Origin: a bacterium
GTDB lineage: Bacteria; Patescibacteriota; Saccharimonadia; Saccharimonadales; JAGQNK01
Assembly: GCA_029557815.1 (NCBI GenBank)
Contig: JAKQHX010000053.1
Span: forward strand, 1 to 34,061
Direction: 5' to 3'
Length of the DNA: 34,061 nucleotides
Position numbers and translations under genes: made by a program. This document shows positions 18,823 through 31,955 of this stretch, piece by piece. Position 1 is the stretch's first letter, and the number at the start of each line of letters is the position of its first letter. The notes beneath the pieces were generated by a model, which saw nothing but the letters and a program-made list of their open reading frames with translations, made no database searches and was not told the DNA's origin.

Positions 18823-20118
18823 CTAGATTTTTTCTCGACCGCCCATGTATGGCCTGAGCACTTCCGGAATAATCACATCGCCTTCGGGTGTCTGGAAATT
18901 TTCGATAATTGCAATTAATGGCCGCTGTGAAAAAACCGTCGCATCGTTTGTATGCGCCAACTCGATAGAACCATCAGTCCTGCGAACACGTGTCTTCATA
19001 GCGCGCGCTTGGTAGTCGGTAATGTAATCGGCGGTATGGGTTTCCCGATACGTCTGCTGACTCGGCAACCATACTTCAATATCCACCCCTTTAGCATTTG
19101 GCCTACCGATATCTGCCGTACACTTTTCAAGCACGTGGTACGGCAAGCCGAGCTGTTGCATCAGGTATTCCTGGATAGCAACCATGAACAGATGCTCCTG
19201 CAGTGAAGTTTCGGCCGTACAGAAGCTTTCCATCTCCAGCTTGTTAAACTGATGGAGGCGAAAAATTCCTTCGGTATCCTTGCCATATGTACCAGCTTCC
19301 TTGCGAAAAGCAGTCGTGTAACCTACATAACGAATCGGCAGTTCATTTTCGGGCAAAATCTCATCCAGATACATTGGCGAAATCGTGTGCTCGGCACTTG
19401 CGTTCATCCAGAGGTCTTCGTCTTCGAACTTGTACGTCTGTTCTTCTCTGTTCAAGCGCCCTGTCGCTTCAAAGACCGCTTTTTTGGCCACGGCTGGCGG
19501 GAGTACCGGCGTAAATGGCTTGGAGCTCACCATGAGGTTATTCTCGGCAATAATTTGCCGTAAGATCTGTTCATCGCTGAGTACGCTCATACCATACTGC
19601 CAGAGAGCAAACTCCAGCCGTACTAAATCACCTTTTGTGTATACAAAACGAGCCCCTGCTATCTTTGTCGCGCGCTCCTTGTCCAACCAGCCTTTAGATT
19701 CGGCTATTTCCGCATGGTTTTTAGCCTCGAATCCAAACTTTGTTGGCTCTCCGACCGTTCTGATAACGACGTTTTCGTCTTCCGTTTTGCCTACAGGAAC
19801 ATCTTCTAGCGGCATATTTGGCACCGCTCTCAGCAGTTCAATAAACTCCCTGTCAATTGAAGCGAACTGATGCTCCAGGTCGGCAAGTTTATCCTTTATC
19901 TCACGGCCTTTCGCGATGAGCTCGTCAGACGGTTTGCCACCTTTCATGCTATCGGCAATTTCGTTACGCTGGCGGCGTAGTTCATCTACTTGTTGCTGCA
20001 TTTCGCGACGCTTGGTATCAAAACCCAGTAATTGCTGGACGTCGACATCATAGCCTTTTTGTTTTGACTTCTCACGTACGAGTTCCGGATTTTCCCGAAT
20101 AAACTGAATATCTAGCAT
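18823..20118 (-). CDS. serS: Seryl-tRNA synthetase
   Basis: 431 residues, typical length. Residues 1-105 form the antiparallel coiled-coil arm that binds the long variable arm of tRNA-Ser. The class II catalytic core follows, with motif 2 FRKEAGTYGKDTEGIFRLHQF and the motif 3 region RPLIAIIENFQ. The conserved NGT just before motif 3 reads NDAT here, a minor deviation. It charges tRNA-Ser with serine. A TATAAT lies exactly 6 nt before the ATG with a -35 (TTAAGT) at 17 bp spacing, so the mRNA is probably leaderless; no Shine-Dalgarno sequence is present. Confidence 0.97.
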   Translation of the reverse strand: MLDIQFIRENPELVREKSKQKGYDVDVQQLLGFDTKRREMQQQVDELRRQRNEIADSMKGGKPSDELIAKGREIKDKLADLEHQFASIDREFIELLRAVPNMPLEDVPVGKTEDENVVIRTVGEPTKFGFEAKNHAEIAESKGWLDKERATKIAGARFVYTKGDLVRLEFALWQYGMSVLSDEQILRQIIAENNLMVSSKPFTPVLPPAVAKKAVFEATGRLNREEQTYKFEDEDLWMNASAEHTISPMYLDEILPENELPIRYVGYTTAFRKEAGTYGKDTEGIFRLHQFNKLEMESFCTAETSLQEHLFMVAIQEYLMQQLGLPYHVLEKCTADIGRPNAKGVDIEVWLPSQQTYRETHTADYITDYQARAMKTRVRRTDGSIELAHTNDATVFSQRPLIAIIENFQTPEGDVIIPEVLRPYMGGREKI

Positions 20119-20124
20119 GCTTTC

Positions 20125-20153
20125 ATTATACCCGAGGAAGTATATTTACTTAA
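20125..20153 (-). promoter_or_regulatory. serS promoter, -10 six nt before ATG; overlaps a palindrome
   Basis: Minus-strand TTAAGT (20148-20153), 17-bp spacer, TATAAT (20125-20130), then 6 nt and the ATG. The -35 lies inside the palindrome TTACTTAAAGTAA (20146-20158), which could be a repressor site. The palindrome also overlaps the stop codon of the nuclease gene. Confidence 0.65.
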
Positions 20154-20941
20154 AGTAAGCCTGGCCGTTTTTTTGCCCGCACAGCTTTGAGCGTAAGTTC
20201 AGTACGCTGGCGAGCGTATTGGCAATAATCACACGGGCCGCCCATGGCTGCGGTGCCGACGGCCGGCATGTCGCCTTCCATGCAATCTTTCATTTCTACC
20301 AAGGTCGGCTCGACCCAACTGTCATCGCCGGTATATGGAATGATTTTGGTCTTGAATTCCACTTTGTCATAAAACCCATCCAGGTCAAACCGGCCGTTCG
20401 TATAGACGAAGTAGCCCGTATCTTGCACCGTGAAGCCGTTTTGGCGCAGCAACCACTGGTACACTTCCATCTGACGTTTATAGCTGATTTGCCAGTCGGA
20501 GTCGATGCCCACATCGCGGTCCTTGGCCGTCGCCTTGTAATCCACCACGATCAACTCGCCCGCATCATTTCTCCAGATATCGTCGACCGCGCCAAAGACA
20601 TGCAGGTTCGTCGGTTCATGAATTGTCGTCACACCGACGAAGTTCTCTCGCCATTTGTCCAGATGGTCATGCGAAAACGGCACCGCACGGACGCCGAAAT
20701 CCGCCATCATCGGGTGAGGTTCACCCTTTAGTCGATAGCTATCGAACTCTTTCTTCAGCAGTTCATCAATCGCTTTGTTGATGTTAAACGGCGGACTGCT
20801 CGGTCGCTTGATCTTTAGCCGCACATCCAGCCAAAAACAGCGTGGACACTGCTTGTACAGCTCTATTTTACTACGCGACACCTTGAATGGCGTTTTCTGA
20901 CCAGGTTTATACGGCTGCGACCGCTCCCTCCAATAATTCAT
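20150..20941 (-). CDS. Cas4/RecB-like PD-(D/E)XK nuclease with four cysteines
   Basis: 263 residues. The PD-(D/E)XK core is clear: Asp120/Asp121 in FGAVDDIW, Asp134-x-Lys136 in IVVDYKA and the RecB-type Gln157-xxx-Tyr161 motif in QMEVYQWLL. Cys32 and Cys35 (QCPRC) near the N-terminus and Cys237 and Cys240 (PCDYC) near the C-terminus probably bind an Fe-S cluster or zinc, as in Cas4 and AddB nucleases; the 2+2 arrangement differs from the usual 1+3 of Cas4. No CRISPR array or cas gene is nearby, so a DNA repair role is more likely. TACAAT lies exactly 6 nt before the ATG. The gene is divergent from the secreted protein at 20968. Confidence 0.88.
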   Translation of the reverse strand: MNYWRERSQPYKPGQKTPFKVSRSKIELYKQCPRCFWLDVRLKIKRPSSPPFNINKAIDELLKKEFDSYRLKGEPHPMMADFGVRAVPFSHDHLDKWRENFVGVTTIHEPTNLHVFGAVDDIWRNDAGELIVVDYKATAKDRDVGIDSDWQISYKRQMEVYQWLLRQNGFTVQDTGYFVYTNGRFDLDGFYDKVEFKTKIIPYTGDDSWVEPTLVEMKDCMEGDMPAVGTAAMGGPCDYCQYARQRTELTLKAVRAKKRPGLL

Positions 20942-20947
20942 CCCTAC

Positions 20948-20969
20948 ATTGTATCAGCTACGCTATAAT
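20948..20969. promoter_or_regulatory. Overlapping divergent -10 elements
   Basis: The 26-bp gap between divergent start codons holds TACAAT on the minus strand (20948-20953), 6 nt before the nuclease ATG, and TATAAT on the plus strand (20964-20969), overlapping the first ATG of the secreted protein. Each -35 region would fall inside the other promoter, so the two may exclude each other. Confidence 0.5.
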
Positions 20970-21900
20970 GAAGCCCACGAATGTGAAGAAATATATCTCC
21001 TTACTGCTTTTACTTACCCTTTTAGCGAGCCCTTTACGAGTCCAAGCCCTGGATATGAATGGTCACATCGAGGATACGGAATGGTTCGGCCTCAATGATA
21101 AAGCCGGCTACAACAGCCTGTCTGTAGATATTACCCCCGAGAAGTGGGAGGGCGGCAGTCATGGTTACTACTATGCAAACAACGCCAGATTCTCTAACGG
21201 TACGAATATATACGGCGGGCTGCAGACCAACGGGTATGATGGTGCGCGACCGCTCGGCAAGATGGCAATCTTCAGTATATGGAACGCCACGACGGGTATT
21301 GCCGAGAGCGGCGGCATTGGCATCCCTTTTGACGGCGAAGGAACCGGCTATAGCGTGCGACTGCCCTTTGATTGGCAAGTTGGGACAACCTACCGTTTCA
21401 CAATATATATTGACCGGGACGCATCGACTGGAGACCGCCTATGGGGAGCCAGCATCACTGACATGCACTCGGGCACAACGACCCGCATTGGCCGGATCTA
21501 TGCACCGGTTACATTTGGCAAGTTACACAGTCCGGTTACGTTTCATGAGAAGTATATCGGCACTACCAAAAGCTGTTCAGACCTGCAACCATCCCAGGTA
21601 CGCTTCTCCAATATGACCGCCAACGATACCATCCGAGCTACGCGCTGGAAACACTACTTCATAAAGTCCACGAGATGCGGCGATACGGTCAGACTTGAGG
21701 ACGTGGCTGACGGCTACCGCAGCAGCATAGGAAATACGTCCGAACCATCAACCCCTACATCCGTAACCCGTCCCAAGCCCGGAGAGCAAGCCGCTACTGC
21801 AGGAAGTCAACACAGTTCGCTTGCTCTGATACCATTGACGATTCTGGCCGCTCTGATTGCCTTTCTCGTATACCGTGTTCGGAAATCCGGTCACAGGTAA
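20968..21900 (+). CDS. Secreted membrane-anchored protein, DUF3472-like
   Basis: 310 residues from the ATG at 20968. A GTG at 20983 is an attractive alternative: it gives MKKYISLLLLLTLLASPLRVQA, a textbook signal peptide, and the ATG itself lies inside a TATAAT hexamer. The frame is open further upstream to 20887, but that part overlaps the divergent nuclease. The ectodomain has the run ITPEKW...GYYYAN...GGLQTNG...AIFSIWN...GEGTGYS...DWQVGTTYRF, which resembles DUF3472 carbohydrate-associated domains; this match is from memory. A Pro/Ser/Thr linker is followed by one C-terminal helix (SLALIPLTILAALIAFLVY) and a short basic tail, without an LPxTG-type motif. Function is unknown. Confidence 0.7.
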   Translation: MKPTNVKKYISLLLLLTLLASPLRVQALDMNGHIEDTEWFGLNDKAGYNSLSVDITPEKWEGGSHGYYYANNARFSNGTNIYGGLQTNGYDGARPLGKMAIFSIWNATTGIAESGGIGIPFDGEGTGYSVRLPFDWQVGTTYRFTIYIDRDASTGDRLWGASITDMHSGTTTRIGRIYAPVTFGKLHSPVTFHEKYIGTTKSCSDLQPSQVRFSNMTANDTIRATRWKHYFIKSTRCGDTVRLEDVADGYRSSIGNTSEPSTPTSVTRPKPGEQAATAGSQHSSLALIPLTILAALIAFLVYRVRKSGHR

Positions 21901-21925
21901 TTTATACGCGCATACCGTAACGTTC

Positions 21926-21957
21926 GTGCTGGCCGGTTACCGGCTGGCACCTTTTTC
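21926..21957 (+). terminator. Terminator after the DUF3472-like gene
   Basis: The stem GTGC-(2-nt mismatch)-GCCGG, loop TTA, CCGGC-(2-nt mismatch)-GCAC (21926-21950) is followed by CTTTTT on the plus strand. It lies inside the last codons of the convergent diguanylate cyclase gene. Confidence 0.65.
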
Positions 21958-22656
21958 TTGCTTGACCCGGTACATTTCCTGGTCCGCCCGATGCAAAAGC
22001 TCTTCAGGTGTTTCACCTGGTCTGAAGTATGCTACACCGATACTTGCACCCACGAATGGTGCGCCAACTTGCTCTGCTGCCGCGCTTACTTCGTCCGACA
22101 GACGGTTTGTCAGACCTTCAATAACTTCCTCGGGATTCAAGTTTTTGTTACGTCGGCTGTTTCCGGCGTTTTTTGGGTTTACGATCGCAACAAACTCATC
22201 GCCTCCAAGCCGTGCAAGGCTTTCTCCTTCGCGTAGATTTATCTGCAGCTTGTTCGCCACTTCGACCAATAGCTCATCGCCTTTCTCGTGACCGAGCGTA
22301 TCGTTTGCCTGCTTGAATTTGTCCAGGTCGATAAACATCAGCGCGAAGTCGCCTTCCTCGCGCGCCTCACCGGTTCGTCTTACGAGCTCTTGGGCAAAGG
22401 CAAGCCTGTTTGCGATGCCGGTAAGTGCATCGGTATGCAGTTGTTTTTCGAGCACTTCATTACGATGCTGCAACCTTGCTATCAACAAAGCCGAGTGTGC
22501 CAAATCCTTAATCGCTTTTCTGTGGTACTCACCCTCAACTCTTGGCAACGTGCCATGTTCATTCAAAGGAATAAACACGTGGTCAACGAAGCTCAAACCA
22601 AGCGCTGGTGCCTCAGTGTCGTGCTTTTCTGGTGTGGGGATATCTTGAATTGACAT
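21937..22656 (-). CDS. GGDEF-domain diguanylate cyclase
   Basis: 239 residues from the ATG at 22656, chosen because the upstream frame to 22713 is AT-rich promoter DNA. The GGDEF domain (about 75-235) contains the TDALTGIANR helix, metal-binding Asp110 and Asp112 in FIDLDKFK, and GGDEF at 151-155, so it should make cyclic di-GMP from two GTP. The inhibitory I-site, normally RxxD five residues before GGDEF, is REGE, so product inhibition is probably lost. A 14-residue Asn/Lys/Arg-rich insert follows the active site (about 161-175). The N-terminal 70 residues hold no known sensor domain. TATAGT lies 15 nt before the start. No PilZ or EAL partner is in the window. Confidence 0.92.
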   Translation of the reverse strand: MSIQDIPTPEKHDTEAPALGLSFVDHVFIPLNEHGTLPRVEGEYHRKAIKDLAHSALLIARLQHRNEVLEKQLHTDALTGIANRLAFAQELVRRTGEAREEGDFALMFIDLDKFKQANDTLGHEKGDELLVEVANKLQINLREGESLARLGGDEFVAIVNPKNAGNSRRNKNLNPEEVIEGLTNRLSDEVSAAAEQVGAPFVGASIGVAYFRPGETPEELLHRADQEMYRVKQEKGASR

Positions 22657-22730
22657 ATGTTTGTTTACATTACTATACTGTTTTATTCTAGCATAGTTTT
22701 TGTATTTTATCAATGTCCTACCGTTGTATA

Positions 22731-23417
22731 TTACTTCAGTACGAGCGAGCTTGCTACAACGGCGGCAGTTTCGGCCCGGAGCGTGAAATCATGGAGATTC
22801 AGGTGTTTGATGCTTTTCTCTACAAATAGCGCTTTTTCAGCGTCTGACCAACCGCCCTCAGGACCTACTAAGACACCTGTGGCGTTGACACTCTCTGCCA
22901 GTCTGTCTTCGCCGTCTTGCTCGCATATGTATAGTACCGCCTTGTCATGGAGCTGCTCGATAGCCGTTTCTACGCGCATCGGCTCCCGGACTGTCGGTAT
23001 ATCGCTGCGACCACATTGTTCAACCGCTTCAATGACAATCTTTTCCGCGCGCTCCTGATCAAAGCCCGTTCTTTCTGAACGGTCGGCCAATAGCGGCAAA
23101 AAGTGACTTACACCGATTTCCGTACCCTTTTGCAGTATCCAGTCATTTTTGTCCTTTTTAAGTAAAGACCAGAGAAGGTATACGTTCCGCTTCGGCTCTT
23201 TGCGCTCAAAATCCGTGACATGCACCAGGTGCGCTTCGTCTCTCTTTATCTCATCAATCTTATACAGCTTGTCGTGCGCTACACCATCAAACAATACGAC
23301 TTGCTGGCCCGGTTTGAAGCGCAGCACGTGGTTCCATTGATGCAACAACTTCTCGTCGTGCAGCCAGAAATCATGTCGCAGTTCGGTAGCACGAACAAAG
23401 AAACGGTGTAGCCTCAT
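22731..23417 (-). CDS. rsmE: 16S rRNA (uracil-1498-N3)-methyltransferase RsmE
   Basis: 228 residues, a SPOUT-class methyltransferase with an N-terminal PUA-like domain (MRLHRFFV start). The family motifs are present: LQKGTEIGV, EAVEQCGRSDIP, VLVGPEGGWSDAE and the knotted C-terminal LRAETAAVVA. It methylates U1498 of 16S rRNA in the assembled 30S subunit. It begins immediately after the HAD gene with AAGGAG 5 nt before the ATG, so the two are translated from one transcript. Confidence 0.96.
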   Translation of the reverse strand: MRLHRFFVRATELRHDFWLHDEKLLHQWNHVLRFKPGQQVVLFDGVAHDKLYKIDEIKRDEAHLVHVTDFERKEPKRNVYLLWSLLKKDKNDWILQKGTEIGVSHFLPLLADRSERTGFDQERAEKIVIEAVEQCGRSDIPTVREPMRVETAIEQLHDKAVLYICEQDGEDRLAESVNATGVLVGPEGGWSDAEKALFVEKSIKHLNLHDFTLRAETAAVVASSLVLK

Positions 23418-23419
23418 TA

Positions 23420-24055
23420 TTACTCCTTGACAAAGAGATTTTTCAGTTCGGCAGGAGTGCGAACGATATGCTCGGGGTGCTGCGCCGCCAAAATCTCTTC
23501 CCCATTAAAGCCCCACGTTACTGAAATAGGCCGTAGACCGGCTTTTTTGGCTGCAATCACGTCGCGGACCTCATCGCCGACATAATACGTTTTGGCCTTA
23601 TCCAATCCGTGCTGCCTGACGACTCGGTTCAGGACTTTTGCTTTGCCAAAGATGCCGGCACCGCCATATATTTGTTCGAAAGGCTCGCGGACATTATGTA
23701 GTTCTAGGAATTTCTGAACGTTGACCAGACTATTGGAGCTCATGACAAACAGCCGATGCTTCTTGGCCAAGGCCTTAATAGTATCATCCATGCCTTCAAA
23801 AAAAGGTATCTCGTCTATCCGCTTAGTTATTTCCGTCCGGGCCCGCACAGCCATTTGAGGGGCGCGCCACAACGGCACACCAAATTCTTTGAAAATTGCT
23901 TTGATTGTCAGGTTTTTGGTACGTTCATAGTCCTCACGTGTAATTACACGATCAACGAGGTACATCTCGTTCAAGATATCTAAGCCGATACTCATGCTGT
24001 CGGCGAGTGTGCCATCCAAGTCAAATATGATGCTCGTGGCGTTTGACTGGTTCAT
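23420..24055 (-). CDS. HAD-superfamily phosphatase (Gph-like)
   Basis: 211 residues from the ATG at 24055, chosen because GGGAGG lies 7 nt upstream; a GTG 15 nt earlier is less likely. HAD motif I is FDLDGT (nucleophile Asp12, acid Asp14), motif II is the Ser106 in VMSSNS, Lys138 is motif III and GDEVRD (160-165) is motif IV. The helical cap between motifs I and II is of the C1 phosphoglycolate phosphatase/beta-phosphoglucomutase type. The substrate cannot be read from sequence. It sits between the heliorhodopsin and rsmE, 23 nt from the former, and probably shares their transcript. Confidence 0.9.
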   Translation of the reverse strand: MNQSNATSIIFDLDGTLADSMSIGLDILNEMYLVDRVITREDYERTKNLTIKAIFKEFGVPLWRAPQMAVRARTEITKRIDEIPFFEGMDDTIKALAKKHRLFVMSSNSLVNVQKFLELHNVREPFEQIYGGAGIFGKAKVLNRVVRQHGLDKAKTYYVGDEVRDVIAAKKAGLRPISVTWGFNGEEILAAQHPEHIVRTPAELKNLFVKE

Positions 24056-24078
24056 GCTGGGCCCTCCCACCGATAGCT

Positions 24079-25023
24079 CTATTTAGCCAAACCTGCAATG
24101 AGGATAATCGCGAAAGCCGCTTTCGTCAAAATGCTGATAGCGACATAGTTGCGCTCAACTACCAAGTAGTTTGCGCCCCGCAGTGACATACGCTGGTTGC
24201 GTGCCTGTAAAGCAAGACCGGCCAGAAGTGCGGCATACAAGGCATATACGTACCATGGGGAGCGTACCATTCCGTACACAACCGTCGCGACAGCATAGGC
24301 GGCTATCAGAAGCCATGGCAATACGGCAGTAACGATCCCCGTGATGTATGCGCTGCGCACCGGCTTGGCCACGGCATTATTTTGTCTCTCGGCAATCAGG
24401 CCAAGTACCGCCGCTACGACGACGACGCCAGCAATAAGCTTGAGGGTCGGTACATCACTTACGCCGCTCAACAGTGCAGCAATTTCCGTCATCAGTGCGC
24501 CTGTCACCGCCAGATCTATCCAGCGGAATGGGAGCATACGGGTAGTATTCACGTACTGTGCGTAGCGATCCTTTAGCCTGGTCAGATACAGAACAGGCAG
24601 TATGGCAGAAAGCAGCAAGACCGCTACCACGAGCCAGCGTGCTTCGACGTCATACACAGACTGTATCGCAGGCGCAAAAACAGTGTGGGTCCTGCTCGCC
24701 AAGTCGTCTTGCGCCAAGTGGCCAAGCGTTAGCGAATAGCTGGTAGTATTCATAAAATAACCCGCCACAAGAGCCAGCAGCACAAACAGACCCGCAGCTG
24801 CCATGTTCAGGCTGCGGAGTGAATGGAGTGTCACACCTATTCGCTTGAAAGGGCTTGTTGTGCGGGCTGATACAGCCTTTGCTGTCGCCTTTGGAGCAGC
24901 CGTTCTAGCGGCCGTTGATTTTTTGGGCACAGCCTTCTTTGCTACGGTTTTCTTAGTTGGTGATTTTGCTTTTGTGGTTTTTGTCTTTGCCTTCGACGTA
25001 GGTTTCTTTGTAGTTGTTGCCAT
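24079..25023 (-). CDS. Heliorhodopsin with a lysine-rich histone H1-like N-terminal tail
   Basis: 314 residues. Residues 66-314 match heliorhodopsin 48C12 (recalled sequence) over all seven helices, without gaps from Leu138 to Glu212. Shared features include FRW (166-168) before the helix 3 counterion site, LLSG near 184-187, LPW (235-237) in helix 5 and NYLVVERNYVAISILTK in helix 7. Lys301 is the retinal Schiff-base lysine (48C12 Lys241) and Ser297 corresponds to Ser237. The counterion position is Asp170, not the usual Glu107. The two conserved histidines appear replaced: His80 by Pro143, His23 probably by Phe80. Residues 1-61 form an extra tail with 16 Lys, 3 Arg and no acidic residue, containing two SPxK motifs. 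Heliorhodopsins have a cytoplasmic N-terminus, so the tail should face the cytosol. It heads a unit with the HAD phosphatase and rsmE. Confidence 0.9.
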   Translation of the reverse strand: MATTTKKPTSKAKTKTTKAKSPTKKTVAKKAVPKKSTAARTAAPKATAKAVSARTTSPFKRIGVTLHSLRSLNMAAAGLFVLLALVAGYFMNTTSYSLTLGHLAQDDLASRTHTVFAPAIQSVYDVEARWLVVAVLLLSAILPVLYLTRLKDRYAQYVNTTRMLPFRWIDLAVTGALMTEIAALLSGVSDVPTLKLIAGVVVVAAVLGLIAERQNNAVAKPVRSAYITGIVTAVLPWLLIAAYAVATVVYGMVRSPWYVYALYAALLAGLALQARNQRMSLRGANYLVVERNYVAISILTKAAFAIILIAGLAK

Positions 25024-25030
25024 ACTGGAA

Positions 25031-25059
25031 AGTGTACCATCTTTATTTCACTTTTGACA
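25031..25059 (-). promoter_or_regulatory. Candidate heliorhodopsin promoter
   Basis: Minus-strand TACACT (25031-25036) lies 7 nt before the ATG; a weak -35, TGTCAA (25054-25059), is 17 bp upstream. A leaderless or nearly leaderless mRNA is predicted. The 121-bp gap is shared with the divergent SPFH gene, for which TACAAT (25107-25112, plus) is a possible -10. Confidence 0.45.
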
Positions 25060-25144
25060 TTTTTCATTTCACAATATGCCGGCCTCTGTAAGCCATAAGT
25101 CTCTGATACAATATAGCTATACATGATGTAAGGAGGACCGTTCG

Positions 25145-25891
25145 ATGGAAGGATTACTGTTTTTACTGTTCATTATCATAGTTTTCGTGCTGGCGTCTGG
25201 CATCAGGATAATCAACCAGTTTGAGCGTGGGATCGTCTTTACGCTCGGCAAGTACACGAGCACGCGTTCGCCTGGACTCAATATCATCATTCCGATATTG
25301 CAGACTATGCGCAAAGTTGATGTCAGGTCAACTCCGGTTGACGTACCAAAACAAGAAGTCATTACCAAAGATAACGTCACCATCGGTGTCGATGCAGTCG
25401 TCTATTTCCGCGTAATCGATCCAGCCAAAGCCGTATTGGAGACAACCAACTACGCATACGCGACCAGCCAATTTTCCCAGGCTGCCTTGCGTGATGTCGT
25501 CGGGAATGTCGAAATGGATGAGTTGCTCGGCAAACGTGAAGAAATAAGTACCCAGATCAAACAAATCGTAGATTCTGAAACCGACAAATGGGGTATCGAC
25601 GTCGAGAACATCAAACTCCAGAACATCGAGCTACCTCAGGACATGAAGCGAGCCATGGCCAAGCAGGCCGAAGCCGAGCGTGAACGCCGCGCTGTCATTA
25701 TCAACGCGGAGGGAGAAAAGGCCGCAGCCCAGCAGGTCGCCGAAGCCGCCGCCATGCTCAGCCGTATTCCGGGCGGCGTCGCCATTCGCACCCTGCAAAC
25801 GCTGGAGAAGATTTCTGTTGAACCAAGCCAAAAGACTGTATTGGTCCTACCGACCGATCTCGCGGGCACGGTCAAAAACTTGATCAAATAG
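25145..25891 (+). CDS. SPFH/band 7 (stomatin/slipin-like) membrane protein
   Basis: 248 residues. One N-terminal hydrophobic anchor (3-22) is followed by the SPFH domain: INQFERGIVFTLGKY, SPGLNIIIPILQTMRKVDVR, then TKDNVTIGVDAVVYFRV. A helical QAEAERERRAVIINAEGEKAAAQ region follows, typical of stomatins/slipins. These proteins oligomerise and organise membrane microdomains or regulate proteases. The partner NfeD-type protease gene is not adjacent. The ATG has a perfect AGGAGG 8 nt upstream. It is divergent from the heliorhodopsin gene, so co-regulation is possible; a physical link between the two membrane proteins is speculative. Confidence 0.95.
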   Translation: MEGLLFLLFIIIVFVLASGIRIINQFERGIVFTLGKYTSTRSPGLNIIIPILQTMRKVDVRSTPVDVPKQEVITKDNVTIGVDAVVYFRVIDPAKAVLETTNYAYATSQFSQAALRDVVGNVEMDELLGKREEISTQIKQIVDSETDKWGIDVENIKLQNIELPQDMKRAMAKQAEAERERRAVIINAEGEKAAAQQVAEAAAMLSRIPGGVAIRTLQTLEKISVEPSQKTVLVLPTDLAGTVKNLIK

Positions 25892-25910
25892 TTAGGTATG
25901 CGCTTTTATC

Positions 25911-26468
25911 CTAATCGAAGGTGACCACTCTGTTCAGCTGGGGCGTGCCATTACTGAGTGAAACAAGCGTATTTCCTAGAGGCTCCCTTGTACCGTCCAC
26001 CAGTTCAATGCTTGCACCACAGAGCACGACATACAGGCCAAGGTCACCAGTTGCTGCAAGCCGTGGCTCATCGTCACTATAACAATCGACATAAAACGAG
26101 TCTTCCGGTACAAAGCCGGCAAAGTCTCCAAACACCTTTCCGTCAGTACACACAAGTCCCGCACCGCTTCCGACAACGAATACTTCTGCGTGATCAACCA
26201 TCAGTTTTTCACCAAAGCCTACGGATAGCTGCGGGATTATCAAATCACCCATCCGTGCGTGCAGCAAGCTCCAGAGATGAGTAAACTCATCGGTAGCGTA
26301 TTCTTCCAGCATGGCGTGGAAAAATTCCAGTAACTGTTCCCTGGTGGGATCAACGGGCTCCGTATAGTAGGAATTCATGCCTGCCTCTTTGGCGAGCCGC
26401 TCCAATTCATCTGACGTGAATTCGGGGCCGACAATATCAAAGAACAGGTTCCTTTCTTCTGCACTCAT
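25911..26468 (-). CDS. Protein of unknown function, 185 aa
   Basis: No family recognised. The protein is acidic, has no signal peptide or membrane helix, and appears to have two parts: a helical N-terminal region (1-75) and a beta-rich C-terminal region (76-185) with the strands LIIPQLSVGFG, AEVFVVGSGAGLVC and GLYVVLCGASIEL. Coding is supported by even codon use, the absence of a competing frame and a TATCAT hexamer 8 nt before the ATG. The gene is convergent with the SPFH gene, 19 nt away, and downstream of plsC on the same strand. Confidence 0.65.
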   Translation of the reverse strand: MSAEERNLFFDIVGPEFTSDELERLAKEAGMNSYYTEPVDPTREQLLEFFHAMLEEYATDEFTHLWSLLHARMGDLIIPQLSVGFGEKLMVDHAEVFVVGSGAGLVCTDGKVFGDFAGFVPEDSFYVDCYSDDEPRLAATGDLGLYVVLCGASIELVDGTREPLGNTLVSLSNGTPQLNRVVTFD

Positions 26469-26525
26469 AAATCCCGATGATACAGCGGGAGCCGTAAAAA
26501 GAAAATTGCTCGTGCTTGACGACTG

Positions 26526-27248
26526 CTACGACTCAGCCAGATCAACCGCCTGGTTTTTGAGCTTGCTGAGTGTGATATCTAAGTGGTCGGTCAAGTCCCG
26601 CACCCTATCCTCCGTACTATCAGCCTGTTCTATTTCCAGCGGCTCGCCGATGACTACGCCGGCATGGAACAAGCCGGCTCTACGCCTAACCATACCACGA
26701 CGATAACCGAGGCCGACAGGCACGACGAACGTGTTGCCTGAGGCTTGCAGCGCCACCCGCGCCACACCGGTCTTCAGCTTGCCAAGACTACGTCGATCGT
26801 GGGATTTATTGCGCGTACCTTCTGGGTACATGACGACCCATTCACCTTGTTCTATTAGGCTGACTGAGGTTTCCAGCGCGCTACGTCGTGAGTCTTCATC
26901 AGTCCTGTCAACCGAATAAGCACCCACGTCTCGAGCTAGTTTACCAATGTACGGCAGCTTCCACAGCTCCTGCTTGCCCATAAATCGCAGCGGTCGTTCG
27001 GTATTTGCTACTCCTAGTGCAATGATGTCCAGCCAGCTGCTGTGGGTCGGTGCCACGATAGCACCCTGTTCCGATGCAGCTTCATTGAGACTGCTCAATA
27101 CCTCACTACCTTCAATCCGAATATCCGCAACTTCCATAAAGCGCTGCAAATTCGCCTGCACTCGCCAATACCGGTCTACGTCTACAGCCAATTCCGGCGG
27201 TTGCTGCGGTAAACTTTCGCCGTTCGGCATGCCTTCTGGAGTGGTCAT
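26526..27248 (-). CDS. 1-acyl-sn-glycerol-3-phosphate acyltransferase (PlsC family)
   Basis: 240 residues from the ATG at 27248; the frame is open to 27341 but the extension overlaps both divergent promoters and is unlikely to be translated. Motif I of the acyltransferase family, H(x)4D, is His69-SSWL-Asp74, and motif III is PEGTR (142-146) in MYPEGTRNKS. The LRFMGKQELWKLPYIG block is the substrate-binding motif II. It adds the second acyl chain to form phosphatidic acid. CPR genomes usually lack full fatty-acid synthesis, so it may act on scavenged lipids (inference). No long hydrophobic anchor is visible, so it is probably peripheral. TATACT is 10 nt before the start. Confidence 0.92.
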   Translation of the reverse strand: MTTPEGMPNGESLPQQPPELAVDVDRYWRVQANLQRFMEVADIRIEGSEVLSSLNEAASEQGAIVAPTHSSWLDIIALGVANTERPLRFMGKQELWKLPYIGKLARDVGAYSVDRTDEDSRRSALETSVSLIEQGEWVVMYPEGTRNKSHDRRSLGKLKTGVARVALQASGNTFVVPVGLGYRRGMVRRRAGLFHAGVVIGEPLEIEQADSTEDRVRDLTDHLDITLSKLKNQAVDLAES

Positions 27249-27258
27249 ATTGCTCAAC

Positions 27259-27281
27259 AGTATAGCAAAAGGTCGTATACT
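27259..27281. promoter_or_regulatory. Divergent -10 elements of plsC and rhodanese
   Basis: Within a 39-bp divergent gap, minus-strand TATACT (27259-27264) is 10 nt before the plsC ATG and plus-strand TATACT (27276-27281) is exactly 6 nt before the rhodanese ATG. Neither gene has a Shine-Dalgarno sequence; both mRNAs should be leaderless or nearly so. Confidence 0.55.
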
Positions 27282-27287
27282 ATACAT

Positions 27288-27563
27288 ATGGTCAGGCTTA
27301 TCATTGACGTACGCGAACCAGATGAATACGCCAGCGGTCACGTTGCCGGCGCACTGAATATGCCGCCTGCCGACTTACTGGCTGGGGCGCCACAACTGAA
27401 GGATGTCGACAAAAATACTGAGATAATTCTCTACTGTGTGTCCGGAGCGCGCTCCAACGCATCAATGAATATTATGCACTCTCTGGGTTACACGAATCTC
27501 ACAAATGGCATTAATAAAGACCACGTCACCAAAAAGTACAATCTGGATATCATTGCAGATTAG
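27288..27563 (+). CDS. Single-domain rhodanese (sulfurtransferase)
   Basis: 91 residues, one rhodanese domain without signal peptide. The N-terminal IIDVREPDEYASGHVAGALNMP is the CH2A-type signature and the active-site loop is CVSGARS with Cys50 as the persulfide carrier. It would move sulfane sulfur in the cytosol; the acceptor is unknown. TATACT lies exactly 6 nt before the ATG. It is divergent from plsC and convergent with the small unknown gene at 27589. Confidence 0.93.
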   Translation: MVRLIIDVREPDEYASGHVAGALNMPPADLLAGAPQLKDVDKNTEIILYCVSGARSNASMNIMHSLGYTNLTNGINKDHVTKKYNLDIIAD

Positions 27564-27588
27564 GCGTTATCAACCTGTCGCAGGCAGT

Positions 27589-27921
27589 TTACTCATTACC
27601 TATAGCACCGCACCTTGCCGTTCCCCGACAGACCAACTTACCTGCTATCCAAAATTGCGGACGAGGACCATCACAGACCATGGCTATCTCTGGTGCTGGT
27701 TGGTTGCATGCCAGCCTTGTTCTCGGTAGTGTCTCACCAGGGCGTTGGTCAACAGACACAAGCGTGTCTGCTTCTACGGCTGTGACTACCGCAACCATAT
27801 CACTTGCCTGACCTGCAAAACCGCAATTCTCTAAACAGAATCTTGACGCATACACAACAGCGTTGTCGGCTATTCGTACATGTACCCGTTCTCGCGCCTC
27901 AGCAGCCACAACTCTTTCCAT
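27589..27921 (-). CDS. Small protein of unknown function, 110 aa
   Basis: No family recognised. The sequence is Ala/Val-rich with six Cys (29, 33, 72, 83, 98, 104) spread through it, no signal peptide and no hydrophobic helix long enough for the membrane. Coding is supported mainly by its promoter: TATAAT exactly 6 nt before the ATG with a -35 at 17 bp spacing. Conversely, parts of the frame have few features of a folded protein, so some doubt remains. Confidence 0.5.
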   Translation of the reverse strand: MERVVAAEARERVHVRIADNAVVYASRFCLENCGFAGQASDMVAVVTAVEADTLVSVDQRPGETLPRTRLACNQPAPEIAMVCDGPRPQFWIAGKLVCRGTARCGAIGNE

Positions 27922-27927
27922 ATATTT

Positions 27928-27956
27928 ATTATAATGGAAAATAGCTGATAATACAA
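27928..27956 (-). promoter_or_regulatory. Promoter for the 110-aa gene, -10 six nt before ATG
   Basis: Minus-strand TTGTAT (27951-27956), 17-bp spacer, TATAAT (27928-27933), six bases, then ATG. This is among the clearest leaderless arrangements in the window. The rest of the gap to lysS (27957-28038) shows no terminator or other feature. Confidence 0.7.
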
Positions 27957-28038
27957 TTTTATGTATAAATCTTTGAATGGTTCGTCTGCCTCTGACACGG
28001 ATTTTACTTTCACCATCTTTCAGGTGTTGTGCCGAACT

Positions 28039-29547
28039 TTACAGCTTGATATCTGGGTAAATAGCTTTTGTAACCTCATCCACCTCAGCGCGCAACTGCG
28101 GGAACGGTACGCCTTCGCGGGCTGTCACACCTTCGAACACCCAGAACACACGCTCTGAATAGCCCCAACCACAGGCTGGCGGCATCCCATACTCAAGCAT
28201 TTCTACGAAATCGATATCCAGCATCATGGCTTCGTCATCACCAGCATCGCGCATTTGCTGCTGCTCAACGAAGCGATTGAGCTGCTCAATTGGGTCATTC
28301 AGCTCCGAGAAGCCATTGCCGAGCTCTGAGCCGGCAATCACCGGCTGAAAGCGTTGTACCGTATCTGGTCGGTCAGGATTGGCCTTGGAGAGCGGACTAA
28401 TAAATAGCGGCGTATTCACAAGCCACACAGGACCAGCGACGTCTTTGCGGATGTTCTTCCAAAGCTTGTCGATACCGCGAGCGATGTTTTCAGTCTGCTC
28501 TACCTCGAGCTTATTGTCTGCCAGCGCTTTCTTAACTTCATCAATCGTACAATTAAGGGGATCGATATTGTAGCGATTTTTAATAGTCTCCACATAGTCC
28601 CACTCCTCCCACTCCTGCTCAAGATCGATATCGAATTTACCGAGCCTGAACCGCAGCGTTCCAAAGGTAGTTTGCAGCACACGGCGGTACATGTCTGTCA
28701 TAAATTTCATACCATCTCGCCAATCGGCGTATGCCCAGTACCACTCCATAGCGACATGCTCCGGCAGATGCTCGTCAGAGTAATTCTCATTTCGGAAGCG
28801 CGGGCCGATGTCATAGACCTTTTCGAAGCCGGCACCTAGCAGACGCTTGAGCGGCAGCTCGTGACTGATGCGCAGGTAGAAATCCTGATCCAGTGCGTCC
28901 ATGTGCGTGACGAACGGGTTGGCGTCGGCACCGCCAGTGGTGTGCTCCAATACGGGTGTGTTCACCTCTACAAAGCCACGCTCGTTCAGGAAATCACGCG
29001 TCGCTTGCCAGAATCGGCTGCGACGGACGAAACGTTCACGTACGTCCGGATTGACGTTCATATCCACGTAACGGCGGCGCATGCGCTCTTCTTTGTTCGT
29101 GAAGCCGTCCTGCTGCGTTGGCATAGGTCGTAGGGACTTGGTGAGTACGCGAAGACTCGTAACCTCAAGCGAAATTTCGCCGGTCTGCGTCTTGATGACT
29201 TTGCCGGTAGCTTCGATGAAATCACCCGGATCCAGTAGGTTTATGTGTTCAAAACCGACTTGGCTCTTGGTTGCATCCAGCGGTTGCATAACATCGTGTT
29301 TCAAAAACAGCTGGATCTGGCCGCTGGCGTCGCGCAAAACAAAAAACGCAATACGACCGAATTTGCGCGTACTGGCAATCCGTCCGGCAAGCGTCACATC
29401 ACTACCTTCGAGTTCGTCGAACTTCTCTATTATTTCACCCGCCGTACTGGTACGCCTCGCTTCCGCCGGGTATGGATTGATACCGAGCTCTTTAAGCGCT
29501 TCGAGCTTGCGGAGACGCTCGTCTCTGAGTTCTTTTAGGTTTGCCAT
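28039..29547 (-). CDS. lysS: Lysyl-tRNA synthetase, class II
   Basis: 502 residues. The N-terminal OB-fold anticodon-binding domain (about 50-145; LAGRIAS...GQIQLFLKHD) is followed by the class II core, with motif 2 around FRNENYSDEHLPEHVAMEWY and a QQQMRDAGDDEAMMLDIDFVEMLEYGMPP block typical of LysRS. Motif 3, normally GxGxGxDR, reads GWGYSERVFWVFEGV, keeping the essential Arg but diverging elsewhere. It charges tRNA-Lys. The gene starts 9 nt after the upstream 143-aa gene and is probably co-transcribed. A TAGAAT 11 nt and an AGGA 7 nt before the ATG are both possible start signals. Confidence 0.96.
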   Translation of the reverse strand: MANLKELRDERLRKLEALKELGINPYPAEARRTSTAGEIIEKFDELEGSDVTLAGRIASTRKFGRIAFFVLRDASGQIQLFLKHDVMQPLDATKSQVGFEHINLLDPGDFIEATGKVIKTQTGEISLEVTSLRVLTKSLRPMPTQQDGFTNKEERMRRRYVDMNVNPDVRERFVRRSRFWQATRDFLNERGFVEVNTPVLEHTTGGADANPFVTHMDALDQDFYLRISHELPLKRLLGAGFEKVYDIGPRFRNENYSDEHLPEHVAMEWYWAYADWRDGMKFMTDMYRRVLQTTFGTLRFRLGKFDIDLEQEWEEWDYVETIKNRYNIDPLNCTIDEVKKALADNKLEVEQTENIARGIDKLWKNIRKDVAGPVWLVNTPLFISPLSKANPDRPDTVQRFQPVIAGSELGNGFSELNDPIEQLNRFVEQQQMRDAGDDEAMMLDIDFVEMLEYGMPPACGWGYSERVFWVFEGVTAREGVPFPQLRAEVDEVTKAIYPDIKL

Positions 29548-29556
29548 ACTTGTTTC

Positions 29557-29988
29557 CTATTCTACCACTGTTTCAACAAATACGCCGAGATAAAATGAAC
29601 CGCGCGTATCATCGTGTTCAGCAAAGTAAGGCACAATACCCCATCCGCCCCATGCTTCATGACCAAAGTACTCACTGAGCACTTCAAAGGCATCAAATGC
29701 GAATGCACGCATGGTGGCATTATCCGCCCCCAGATCTCCCATGTCCGCGCCCACAACCGCGGGTGGCATGCAGAAAGGCCGTTGAAGCGGTACTGCGTGC
29801 AACAACGTCATGTCCTCTTGGTGCTGTAATTCCTTGGTAATTTCTCCGACGCGAACATCATCACACTGCACCGCCGTCGTCATTGCGCGGCGTATCTGCC
29901 AATCGTGTTGCAATGAGAGTGGTATCGCTCCCAGACCTCCCAACCCAGAGAGCAACTCTTGTTGGCTTGATAGTCTCAATTTTTCCAT
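29557..29988 (-). CDS. Protein of unknown function upstream of lysS, 143 aa
   Basis: The ATG at 29988 is preferred; a TTG at 30012 in the same frame is possible but would start next to the greA terminator. No family recognised. The protein is soluble, without signal peptide, and ends in aromatic, glycine-rich segments (EYFGHEAWGGWGIVPYFAEH) followed by GSFYLGVFVETVVE, suggesting a compact alpha/beta domain. It ends 9 nt before lysS and should be on the same mRNA. TATAAA and TAGAAA hexamers lie just before the start, too close for a normal leader. Confidence 0.6.
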   Translation of the reverse strand: MEKLRLSSQQELLSGLGGLGAIPLSLQHDWQIRRAMTTAVQCDDVRVGEITKELQHQEDMTLLHAVPLQRPFCMPPAVVGADMGDLGADNATMRAFAFDAFEVLSEYFGHEAWGGWGIVPYFAEHDDTRGSFYLGVFVETVVE

Positions 29989-30014
29989 ACATTTATACTT
30001 TCTACTCGTCAAAC

Positions 30015-30058
30015 AAAAAACTCCCAGGGGGTTTCGTCGTAAGGCCCGGGAGTTTTTT
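30015..30058 (-). terminator. Rho-independent terminator after greA
   Basis: A perfect 11-bp inverted repeat, AAAAAACTCCC (30015-30025) with GGGAGTTTTTT (30048-30058), encloses a 22-nt GC-rich loop. A-tract and T-tract arms make it work on either strand; the relevant transcript is greA, ending at 30181. The rest of the 168-bp gap (30059-30180) shows nothing else definite. Confidence 0.85.
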
Positions 30059-30180
30059 GACGTAATAGAATTGAGCTCTGGGCGCCTACGACCAAAGCTT
30101 CGTCTTTATGACTGATGAGAATACGCAACTACACATAGGTATTATATTTATATGGTATAACGATTTATATTTTTGTCAAA

Positions 30181-30642
30181 TCAGCTGATATCTACGATTT
30201 TGTACGTACATGTTTCTGCAGGTGTTTTTATCTCGACTTCTTCGCCTTCCTTTTTGCCAAGCAACGCCTTGCCAATGGGAGACTCGTCAGAAATCTTGCC
30301 ATTTAGCGGATCGGCCTCTACTGTACCGACGACCTGGAATTCCTTAGTCTTACCGCCTTCGCTCTTGAGTTTTACACTCGAGCCCAACTGTACCTTACTA
30401 TCACCCTTTGGTTTTTTTATGACCTCTACGTTTTGTAGGATATTTTCGATTTCCGAGATGCGGCCTTCGACGCGTTCCTGCTCTTGGCGTGCTGAACTGT
30501 ATTCTGCATTTTCACTCAAATCACCAAATTCGCGGGCTGTCTTGATACGTTCCGCGATCGGTCCACGCTGCTCAACAAGCTCCTTGTGCTCAGCCTCCAG
30601 TTCTGCAATACCTTCTTTGGTAAGGTAAAATTGTTTCTTCAT
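30181..30642 (-). CDS. greA: Transcription elongation factor GreA
   Basis: 153 residues, a standard GreA. Residues 1-75 form the coiled-coil that enters the RNA polymerase secondary channel; the tip carries the acidic pair in REFGDLSENAEY needed to stimulate transcript cleavage. The C-terminal FKBP-like domain ends with the usual SPIGKALLGKKEGEEVEIKTPAET. It rescues backtracked polymerase. AAAGGAG lies 6 nt before the ATG and an extended -10 promoter overlaps the end of proS, so it can be expressed independently. Confidence 0.97.
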   Translation of the reverse strand: MKKQFYLTKEGIAELEAEHKELVEQRGPIAERIKTAREFGDLSENAEYSSARQEQERVEGRISEIENILQNVEVIKKPKGDSKVQLGSSVKLKSEGGKTKEFQVVGTVEADPLNGKISDESPIGKALLGKKEGEEVEIKTPAETCTYKIVDIS

Positions 30643-30689
30643 AAAAGGCTCCTTTCTCGGTAAATCACGGGCTCTTGGATTTACTTGTA

Positions 30690-30698
30690 ATTATAGCA
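30690..30698 (-). promoter_or_regulatory. greA promoter (extended -10)
   Basis: Minus-strand TGCTATAAT is a consensus extended -10, which needs little -35 contact; the -35 region is indeed weak. The predicted leader is about 40 nt and contains the greA ribosome binding site. Confidence 0.7.
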
Positions 30699-30701
30699 AA
30701 A

Positions 30702-31955
30702 TTACTTACTTAATGTTTCGACGATTTGATTGGCTGGTAGCACTTTTGTCTCGGCTTCTGTGCGCTTCTTAAGTTCGTGCGTGCCTGCCTGAATCGTCCT
30801 CTCGCTCACCACCACACGATATGGGATTCCCATAAGGTCTGCATCCGCAAACTTTTCGCCGGGGCGAGCATCGCGGTCATCATATAGTACCGTAATGCCG
30901 GCAGCAGTCAAGCGATTATATAATTCATCAGCCGTTGATATCACAGAAGGTATATTTCCGAGTCTTGCGAGGTAGACTTTGGCCGGTGCAATATTTTCTG
31001 GCCAGACCAGCCCACGTTCATCAGAAAAGTGCTCGGCTAGTGCTCCAACCAACCGGCTAACACCGATACCGTAGCATCCGGCGATAATTTTCTGCTGTTC
31101 ACCGTCTGCATCAACGTAGTACACACCAAGCGCATCGGTATATTTACTTTCAAGTGGGAAAATATTTCCGACTTCGATAGCTTTGTATTCTTTCAGCTTG
31201 GTTTTATCGACGCTTGTTGCAGCCAATCTTTCGTCATCTATTACTTCTTTGTTGACTGCAATTTTCTGCTGTTCATCAACATAAATCGTATCCTCACCTA
31301 TTTCGCTCAACATCTGGAATTCGTCACTAAAGCGCGACGTAAATATACCGCCGTCGGCAAAGGTCCGATAGGTAATGTCGCCGATGCCAAGCCTTTCGTA
31401 AACTCGGTGATATGCCTGGGCAACTTTTTCGTAGATTTCTTCATGTTCTTCCTGCGAACGCGCAAAACTATACATGTCCTTCATGACAAATTCGCGACCA
31501 CGAAGCAAGCCTGCTTGCGCCCGTAGCTCGTTGCGGAACTTGGTCTGGATTTGGTAAATAGATACTGGCAAATCTTTGTATGAGCTAATGTAGTCGGACA
31601 ACATATCGACAATTGGCTCTTCGTGAGTCAAGCCCATGCCCAGCTCGGTACCGTTAGACAGCTTGGTCTTAAACCAGTTGTCCACCTTGGCATCATCCCA
31701 GCGATCCGTTTTCTCAAATATTTCTTTAGGCTGCAGTACGGTCATCTGTACTTCTTGGCCACCTACGGCATTCATCTCTTCTCTAACAATTTGCTTGATA
31801 TTCTCTAGTACGCGAAGGCCGAGCGGCATGAAAACGTACACCCCGGCCATTTCTTTGTGAATGAAGCCGGCCTTGATTAGCAACTGGGCGTTTTTAGCAA
31901 CCTCGTCTGCGGGCGCATCTTTGCGGGTTTTGGTAAATAATTCAGATAGTTTCAT
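30702..31955 (-). CDS. proS: Prolyl-tRNA synthetase, short form without editing domain
   Basis: 417 residues against about 570 for E. coli-type ProRS. Class II motifs are present: motif 1 region MAGVYVFMPLG, motif 2 FRNELRAQAGLLRGREFVMKDMYSF and motif 3 GCYGIGVSRLVGAL, then the C-terminal anticodon-binding domain (VYLARLGN...ADADLMGIPYRVVV). Motifs 2 and 3 are joined by a short linker, so the INS domain that deacylates Ala-tRNA-Pro is absent, as in several reduced or alphaproteobacterial enzymes. No stand-alone YbaK/ProX-type editing gene is in the window. It begins 4 nt after proB; the pair is an operon. Confidence 0.97.
   Translation of the reverse strand: MKLSELFTKTRKDAPADEVAKNAQLLIKAGFIHKEMAGVYVFMPLGLRVLENIKQIVREEMNAVGGQEVQMTVLQPKEIFEKTDRWDDAKVDNWFKTKLSNGTELGMGLTHEEPIVDMLSDYISSYKDLPVSIYQIQTKFRNELRAQAGLLRGREFVMKDMYSFARSQEEHEEIYEKVAQAYHRVYERLGIGDITYRTFADGGIFTSRFSDEFQMLSEIGEDTIYVDEQQKIAVNKEVIDDERLAATSVDKTKLKEYKAIEVGNIFPLESKYTDALGVYYVDADGEQQKIIAGCYGIGVSRLVGALAEHFSDERGLVWPENIAPAKVYLARLGNIPSVISTADELYNRLTAAGITVLYDDRDARPGEKFADADLMGIPYRVVVSERTIQAGTHELKKRTEAETKVLPANQIVETLSK

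Follow-up and report, generated by a model that had tools for sequence, protein, structure and literature searches.

Heliorhodopsin function is largely unsolved. Members of the family are frequent in Saccharimonadia (PMC9166423) and have been found to bind glutamine synthetase, photolyase and an ABC transporter (PMC9529153, PMC9769723, PMC11109279), hence partners in the cytosol have precedent. N-terminal extensions of these proteins, namely MORN repeats, zinc ribbons and the types ntv1-ntv10, are catalogued in the sections of PMC8612252 considered here, which cover SxxxK proteins only. The FArhodopsins are rhodopsin homologues in which the retinal pocket is reduced or missing, some being devoid of the lysine, and which are encoded beside an SPFH gene (PMC10308929). 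A literature search for a lysine-rich heliorhodopsin tail or for a heliorhodopsin at an RNA methyltransferase locus found no describing paper, and a search on lysine-rich proteins in Saccharibacteria returned nothing.

Here, we report the analysis of a 34,061-nucleotide stretch of DNA from a member of the Saccharimonadales (the whole stretch is referred to as the window), in which a reverse-strand ORF at 24079-25023 (start ATG, 314 amino acids) encodes a heliorhodopsin-fold protein with a lysine-rich N-terminus. The original prediction described this N-terminus as a histone H1-like tail through which a light-sensing membrane protein could touch the nucleoid, RNA or the acidic membrane surface. 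The part that stood is a selected cationic tail on a heliorhodopsin-fold protein; the histone H1, SPKK and nucleoid part was not supported.

Features of the locus

The features of the window referred to in the text are as follows.

18823..20118, reverse strand: seryl-tRNA synthetase (SerS), which marks the conserved end of the locus; name taken from sequence and cluster
20150..20941, reverse strand: protein of the PD-(D/E)XK nuclease superfamily, a conserved member of the locus
22731..23417, reverse strand: RsmE-type 16S rRNA methyltransferase (Methyltrans_RNA and PUA_4), which follows the HAD gene at 2 bp and is a neighbour kept across the branch
23420..24070, reverse strand: HAD-like hydrolase, whose gene follows the heliorhodopsin gene at a distance of 8 bp, putative operon
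24079..24840, reverse strand: heliorhodopsin-fold seven-transmembrane (7-TM) core, residues 62-314 and stop (PF18761, Foldseek, AB-loop beta-strands)
24841..25023, reverse strand: lysine-rich, acid-free tail, residues 1-61, predicted to be cytosolic (composition, AlphaFold, same-genus relative)
25145..25891, forward strand: SPFH/Band 7 gene of the stomatin/flotillin-like kind, transcribed divergently from the heliorhodopsin gene
28039..31955, reverse strand: genes for LysRS, GreA and a ProS-like protein, on the upstream flank of the conserved locus; names taken from sequence and cluster

The gene order common to the locus is SerS, PD-(D/E)XK, RsmE, often an RNA methyltransferase with TRAM and tRNA_U5-meth_tr domains or a HAD gene, heliorhodopsin, MsrA, DUF427, LysRS, GreA and ProS-like, with MsrA and DUF427 lying just upstream of the heliorhodopsin gene in many relatives. 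The SerS, PD-DExK, RsmE, heliorhodopsin, LysRS, GreA and ProS-like block, which is conserved across Saccharimonadales, corresponds to 18823-31955 of the window. The gene 3' of the heliorhodopsin gene is usually on the same strand and often belongs to the TRAM-type uracil-methyltransferase family or is RsmE, and the gap to it ranges from an overlap to ~140 bp, mostly below 60 bp. Among the loci compared, the SPFH gene adjoins the heliorhodopsin gene only in the genus of the window. On the opposite strand inside the locus (20887-21900) lies a gene for a DUF3472 protein, which has a hydrophobic segment at its N-terminal end and a TM segment at its C-terminal end.

Core fold and retinal site

The Pfam Heliorhodopsin family (PF18761) spans residues 69-311 of the window protein (95.7 bits, cut-off 26.7), and the AlphaFold core is confident and helical, with the AB-loop beta-strands present. 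All ten of the best Foldseek matches are solved heliorhodopsins (top 7u55, TM-score 0.89 over the target, 22% identity). An SPFH gene is adjacent, but the core matches heliorhodopsin in both Pfam and Foldseek, and the protein is not a FArhodopsin.

The SxxxK motif is found in TM7 (S297-K301, SILTK), though several close relatives have lost it, and the counterion position in TM3 is taken by D170 instead of Glu; the E108D mutant of TaHeR has already been crystallised (7clj). The window protein retains 26 of the 67 positions (39%) that are conserved in the canonical copies found away from the locus, and F80, P143 and I306 replace the canonical His, His and Trp. From these residues, K301 and D170 could still hold retinal in a remodelled pocket, and the protein may or may not bind it. 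Searches of its own genome for a type-1 rhodopsin or the retinal-forming enzyme Blh gave no match, as they did in the control genomes. We infer from homology that the N-terminus lies in the cytosol.

The cationic tail and its start codon

Residues 1-61 comprise 16 Lys, 14 Thr, 13 Ala, five Pro, five Ser, three Val, three Arg, one Met and one Phe, with neither Asp nor Glu, and include both SPTKK and SPFKR, just as had been described from the window sequence. Neither MORN repeats nor a CxxC zinc ribbon was found in the tail (no Pfam match in residues 1-61, no Cys). The pLDDT of the AlphaFold model is below 50 at residues 7-61, thus the tail is predicted to be disordered. The original prediction had also called its length unusual, which agrees with a median N-terminus of 11 residues in untailed relatives; canonical heliorhodopsins of the same order have an N-terminus of ~10 residues with two or three Lys. 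In the ~897 ORFs called over nearly all of the 933-kb genome, one further protein has a 61-residue stretch with at least 19 Lys and Arg and no acidic residue, and the net charge of the N-terminal 60 residues of the window protein (+18) ranks fourth. When read in the other frames, the tail DNA contains stops.

The homologue in a genome of the same genus (G001, Candidatus Saccharibacteria HKST-UBA66) opens MATTTKKSTSRSKTNTSKAKSSTKQ..., has the same gene context, and shares the MATTTKK start with the window protein at 65% identity between the two proteins. Between these copies the tail changes faster than the core (tail pS 0.57 and pN 0.31; core pS 0.83 and pN 0.18), and its composition is nevertheless held. 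The same-genus tail has 17 Lys or Arg and neither an acidic residue nor a stop, a result matched by 0 of 2000 neutral simulations of the tail DNA, which gave on average 2.5 stops, 3.5 acidic and 12 hydrophobic residues. The tail is under compositional selection. A mis-called start, with translation beginning near residue 60, was rejected because the MATTTKK opening and the cationic composition persist in the same-genus relative and selection on composition is seen in the relatives.

Distribution of the tail in Saccharimonadales

A total of 106 heliorhodopsin homologues were gathered from Saccharimonadales genomes, and N-termini of at least 35 residues with at least 20% Lys and Arg and few acids were scored as tails. 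The rule selected 29 homologues, one of which (L016) probably has a mis-called start. Lysine-rich N-termini are thus present in the same-genus relative and in further homologues, which rules out a tail unique to its own genome, an outcome that would have told against the original prediction. The tails share a MAT(T)KK-like start, 12 of them opening with MATT, and their pooled composition is 27% Lys, 18% Thr, 16% Ala, 13% Ser, 3% Arg and 3% Pro. SPxK-type motifs occur in 2 of the 29 tails; there are two in the window protein and none in its same-genus relative.

On a tree built from the cores, with the tail columns excluded, the tail label requires at least nine changes, three of them forced by well-supported branches. 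The tail marks most of the divergent branch of the window and, separately, canonical copies of family f6, and is thus a trait of a branch. A profile built on the divergent branch was run on 380 genomes sampled from the phylum, and no genome outside the order scored within the range of the branch.

The homologues divide into 63 copies at the locus and 43 elsewhere, some of the latter being judged from 1.5 kb of flank only. Every one of the 29 tails belongs to a locus copy, and the 43 off-locus copies have none. The Fisher p of ~1e-8 for this split is too strong a measure, as most off-locus copies come from a single clade and are not independent events. The tail is missing from 34 of the 63 locus copies, about half, so it is not essential to the role of the core. 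The window protein is a locus-resident, divergent heliorhodopsin-fold protein of Saccharimonadales.

Loss of the retinal lysine

The TM7 retinal lysine is absent from 23 of the 63 locus copies (including L033, L034, L035, L036, L039, L040, L045, L046, L049, L050 and L053), where it is replaced by R, Q, A, V, L, I, S, T, E or W, and is kept in all 43 off-locus copies. Twelve of the 23 are tailed, and since every lysine-less copy is at the tail-bearing locus, the tail is retained in copies that have lost retinal binding. The genus mate of the window keeps the lysine and others of the branch carry R, Q or A. Four genomes (G012, G043, G041 and G047) encode both a canonical copy away from the locus and a lysine-less copy at it, as would be expected of two proteins with separate jobs. 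The description of the protein as light-sensing is accordingly doubtful for the branch.

In an independent-pairs test on the tree, the tail and the loss of the retinal site did not correlate more than clade membership explains. A causal tie between tail gain and loss of the lysine is thus unsupported, both being clustered in one branch, and it is not established because tails are also carried by the f6 copies, which keep SLVAK, WxEY and a highly conserved pocket.

Other cationic tails in the same genome

Cationic segments on the cytosolic side were found in several other proteins of the genome: YidC, those which we take from sequence recognition to be SecE and the RNA-binding protein bS20, an 8-TM protein, a 2047-residue surface protein and several anchored proteins. 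In YidC the cytosolic C-terminal tail ends KTKTTKKKSSKKTANKRRK, and bS20 has a similar tail, also C-terminal. Lysine-rich cytosolic tails of the YidC type can bind ribosomes. In the unrelated 8-TM, 2047-residue surface, 755-, 889- and 349-residue proteins, the first TM helix comes after a long cationic segment, and the mean N-terminal charge is +2.2 for membrane proteins versus +0.2 for soluble ones. Several of the tailed membrane proteins are surface-anchored and have no RNA link. Given such segments on SecE, YidC, bS20 and anchored proteins, the cationic tail is a general device of membrane and RNA-facing proteins in this genome and is not specific to light sensing.

Two further observations were made. 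SecA, encoded at 15734-18334 of the window, has a strongly basic C-terminal tail, KRKKARKQERQRKAKAKSRKRK. The gene for the 2047-residue predicted surface protein (L119, contig C48 of the same genome, 9197-15338) encodes a 90-residue cationic N-terminal segment before TM1.

Discussion

We tentatively favour a tail that serves as a tether by electrostatic attraction to a polyanion on the inner face of the membrane. The tail would lie in the cytosol and the 7-TM core would anchor the protein and may bind a partner, while retinal, and hence light control, would be optional in the locus-resident branch. RNA or ribosomes are slightly the likelier polyanion, ahead of anionic phospholipid, because the operon partners act on rRNA or tRNA; gene neighbourhood in streamlined genomes, however, need not imply shared function. 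Candidate partners are RsmE, the TRAM-type RNA methyltransferase, ribosomes and anionic lipid.

It is possible, if somewhat doubtful, that the tail is instead a membrane-surface or topology element, which would bind anionic lipid and enforce the N-in orientation by the positive-inside rule with no nucleic-acid partner. The cationic segments before TM1 of unrelated membrane proteins and the higher mean N-terminal charge of membrane proteins suit such a role, and the tailed surface-anchored proteins that have no RNA link favour lipid or topology, fitting these roles equally well. The charge, however, is well beyond what topology needs, given that canonical heliorhodopsins manage with their short N-termini, and the tails are confined to the RNA methyltransferase locus.

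For the branch as a whole, we make a proposal that we regard as speculative: a vertically resident homologue at a translation and RNA-modification locus may have taken on a new role, in many cases with retinal gone, in which its lysine-rich tail lets it anchor ribosomes or RNA to the membrane, making it a post-photoreceptor heliorhodopsin fold. Retention of the locus, and in about half of the copies the tail, together with repeated loss of the chromophore site, suggests a light-independent job at the cytosolic face.

A light-gated tail, in which isomerisation of retinal alters the contacts of the tail, is improbable. K301 and D170 are retained in the window protein, the tailed f6 copies have a well-conserved pocket, and known heliorhodopsins regulate cytosolic partners (PMC9529153, PMC9769723). 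These points are set against the small share of canonical positions kept, the loss of both His and the Trp, and the branch members with R, Q or A in place of the lysine; the missing type-1 rhodopsin and Blh matches count only weakly, as the control genomes were also matchless.

More doubtful still is a histone H1-like nucleoid tether, in which SPKK motifs would place the tail in the DNA minor groove. Two strict SPx[KR] motifs are rare in shuffles of the window tail (P=0.005), whereas two of the looser [ST]Px[KR] are not (P=0.08). However, the same-genus protein lacks the motifs despite its 65% identity, as do 27 of the 29 tails. The tails are rich in Lys, Thr, Ala and Ser and poor in Pro, and the unconserved H1/SPKK motif was rejected as a functional unit. 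The tailed protein is probably not a histone-like light switch, since the tail is branch-wide and beside RNA-modifying enzymes and the retinal residue is often lost. That the tail reflects an annotation error, or N-terminal drift free of selection, with the true start near residue 63, is barely credible: a GTG is in frame at codon 63 and the Shine-Dalgarno sequence 5' of the ATG is not clear (by a heuristic that scores most relatives the same), but the conserved MATTTKK opening and composition-level selection in relatives oppose it.

Surveys that require the retinal lysine, as PMC8612252 and PMC9601134 do in the sections considered here, would have dropped many of these proteins, and not every heliorhodopsin match in Saccharibacteria should be read as a light sensor.

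Comparison with known systems

With the canonical heliorhodopsins (48C12, TaHeR; PF18761), the window protein shares the fold, the AB-loop beta-strands and SxxxK. The canonical proteins have a Glu counterion, two His and a Trp near the lysine and an N-terminus of ~10 residues, whereas the window protein has Asp, has lost all three of the other residues and carries a 61-residue cationic tail. A cytosolic N-terminal extension is common to MORN-HeR and Znf-HeR, the two classes of PMC8612252 compared here, but that of the window protein is lysine-rich and of low complexity. Linker histone H1 tails and bacterial H1-like proteins resemble the window tail in being Lys/Ala-rich and disordered and in the two SPxK motifs; the motifs of the window tail are unconserved, the tail is Pro-poor and no further H1 features were found. 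The cytosolic C-terminal tails of YidC are alike in being lysine-rich and borne on a membrane protein, an analogy of working only, as the cores are not homologous. The FArhodopsins belong to the proteorhodopsin family, whereas the window core is a heliorhodopsin and its SPFH gene is genus-limited and divergently transcribed; with an adjoining SPFH gene and an eroded pocket in both, they are the closest conceptual parallel (PMC10308929).
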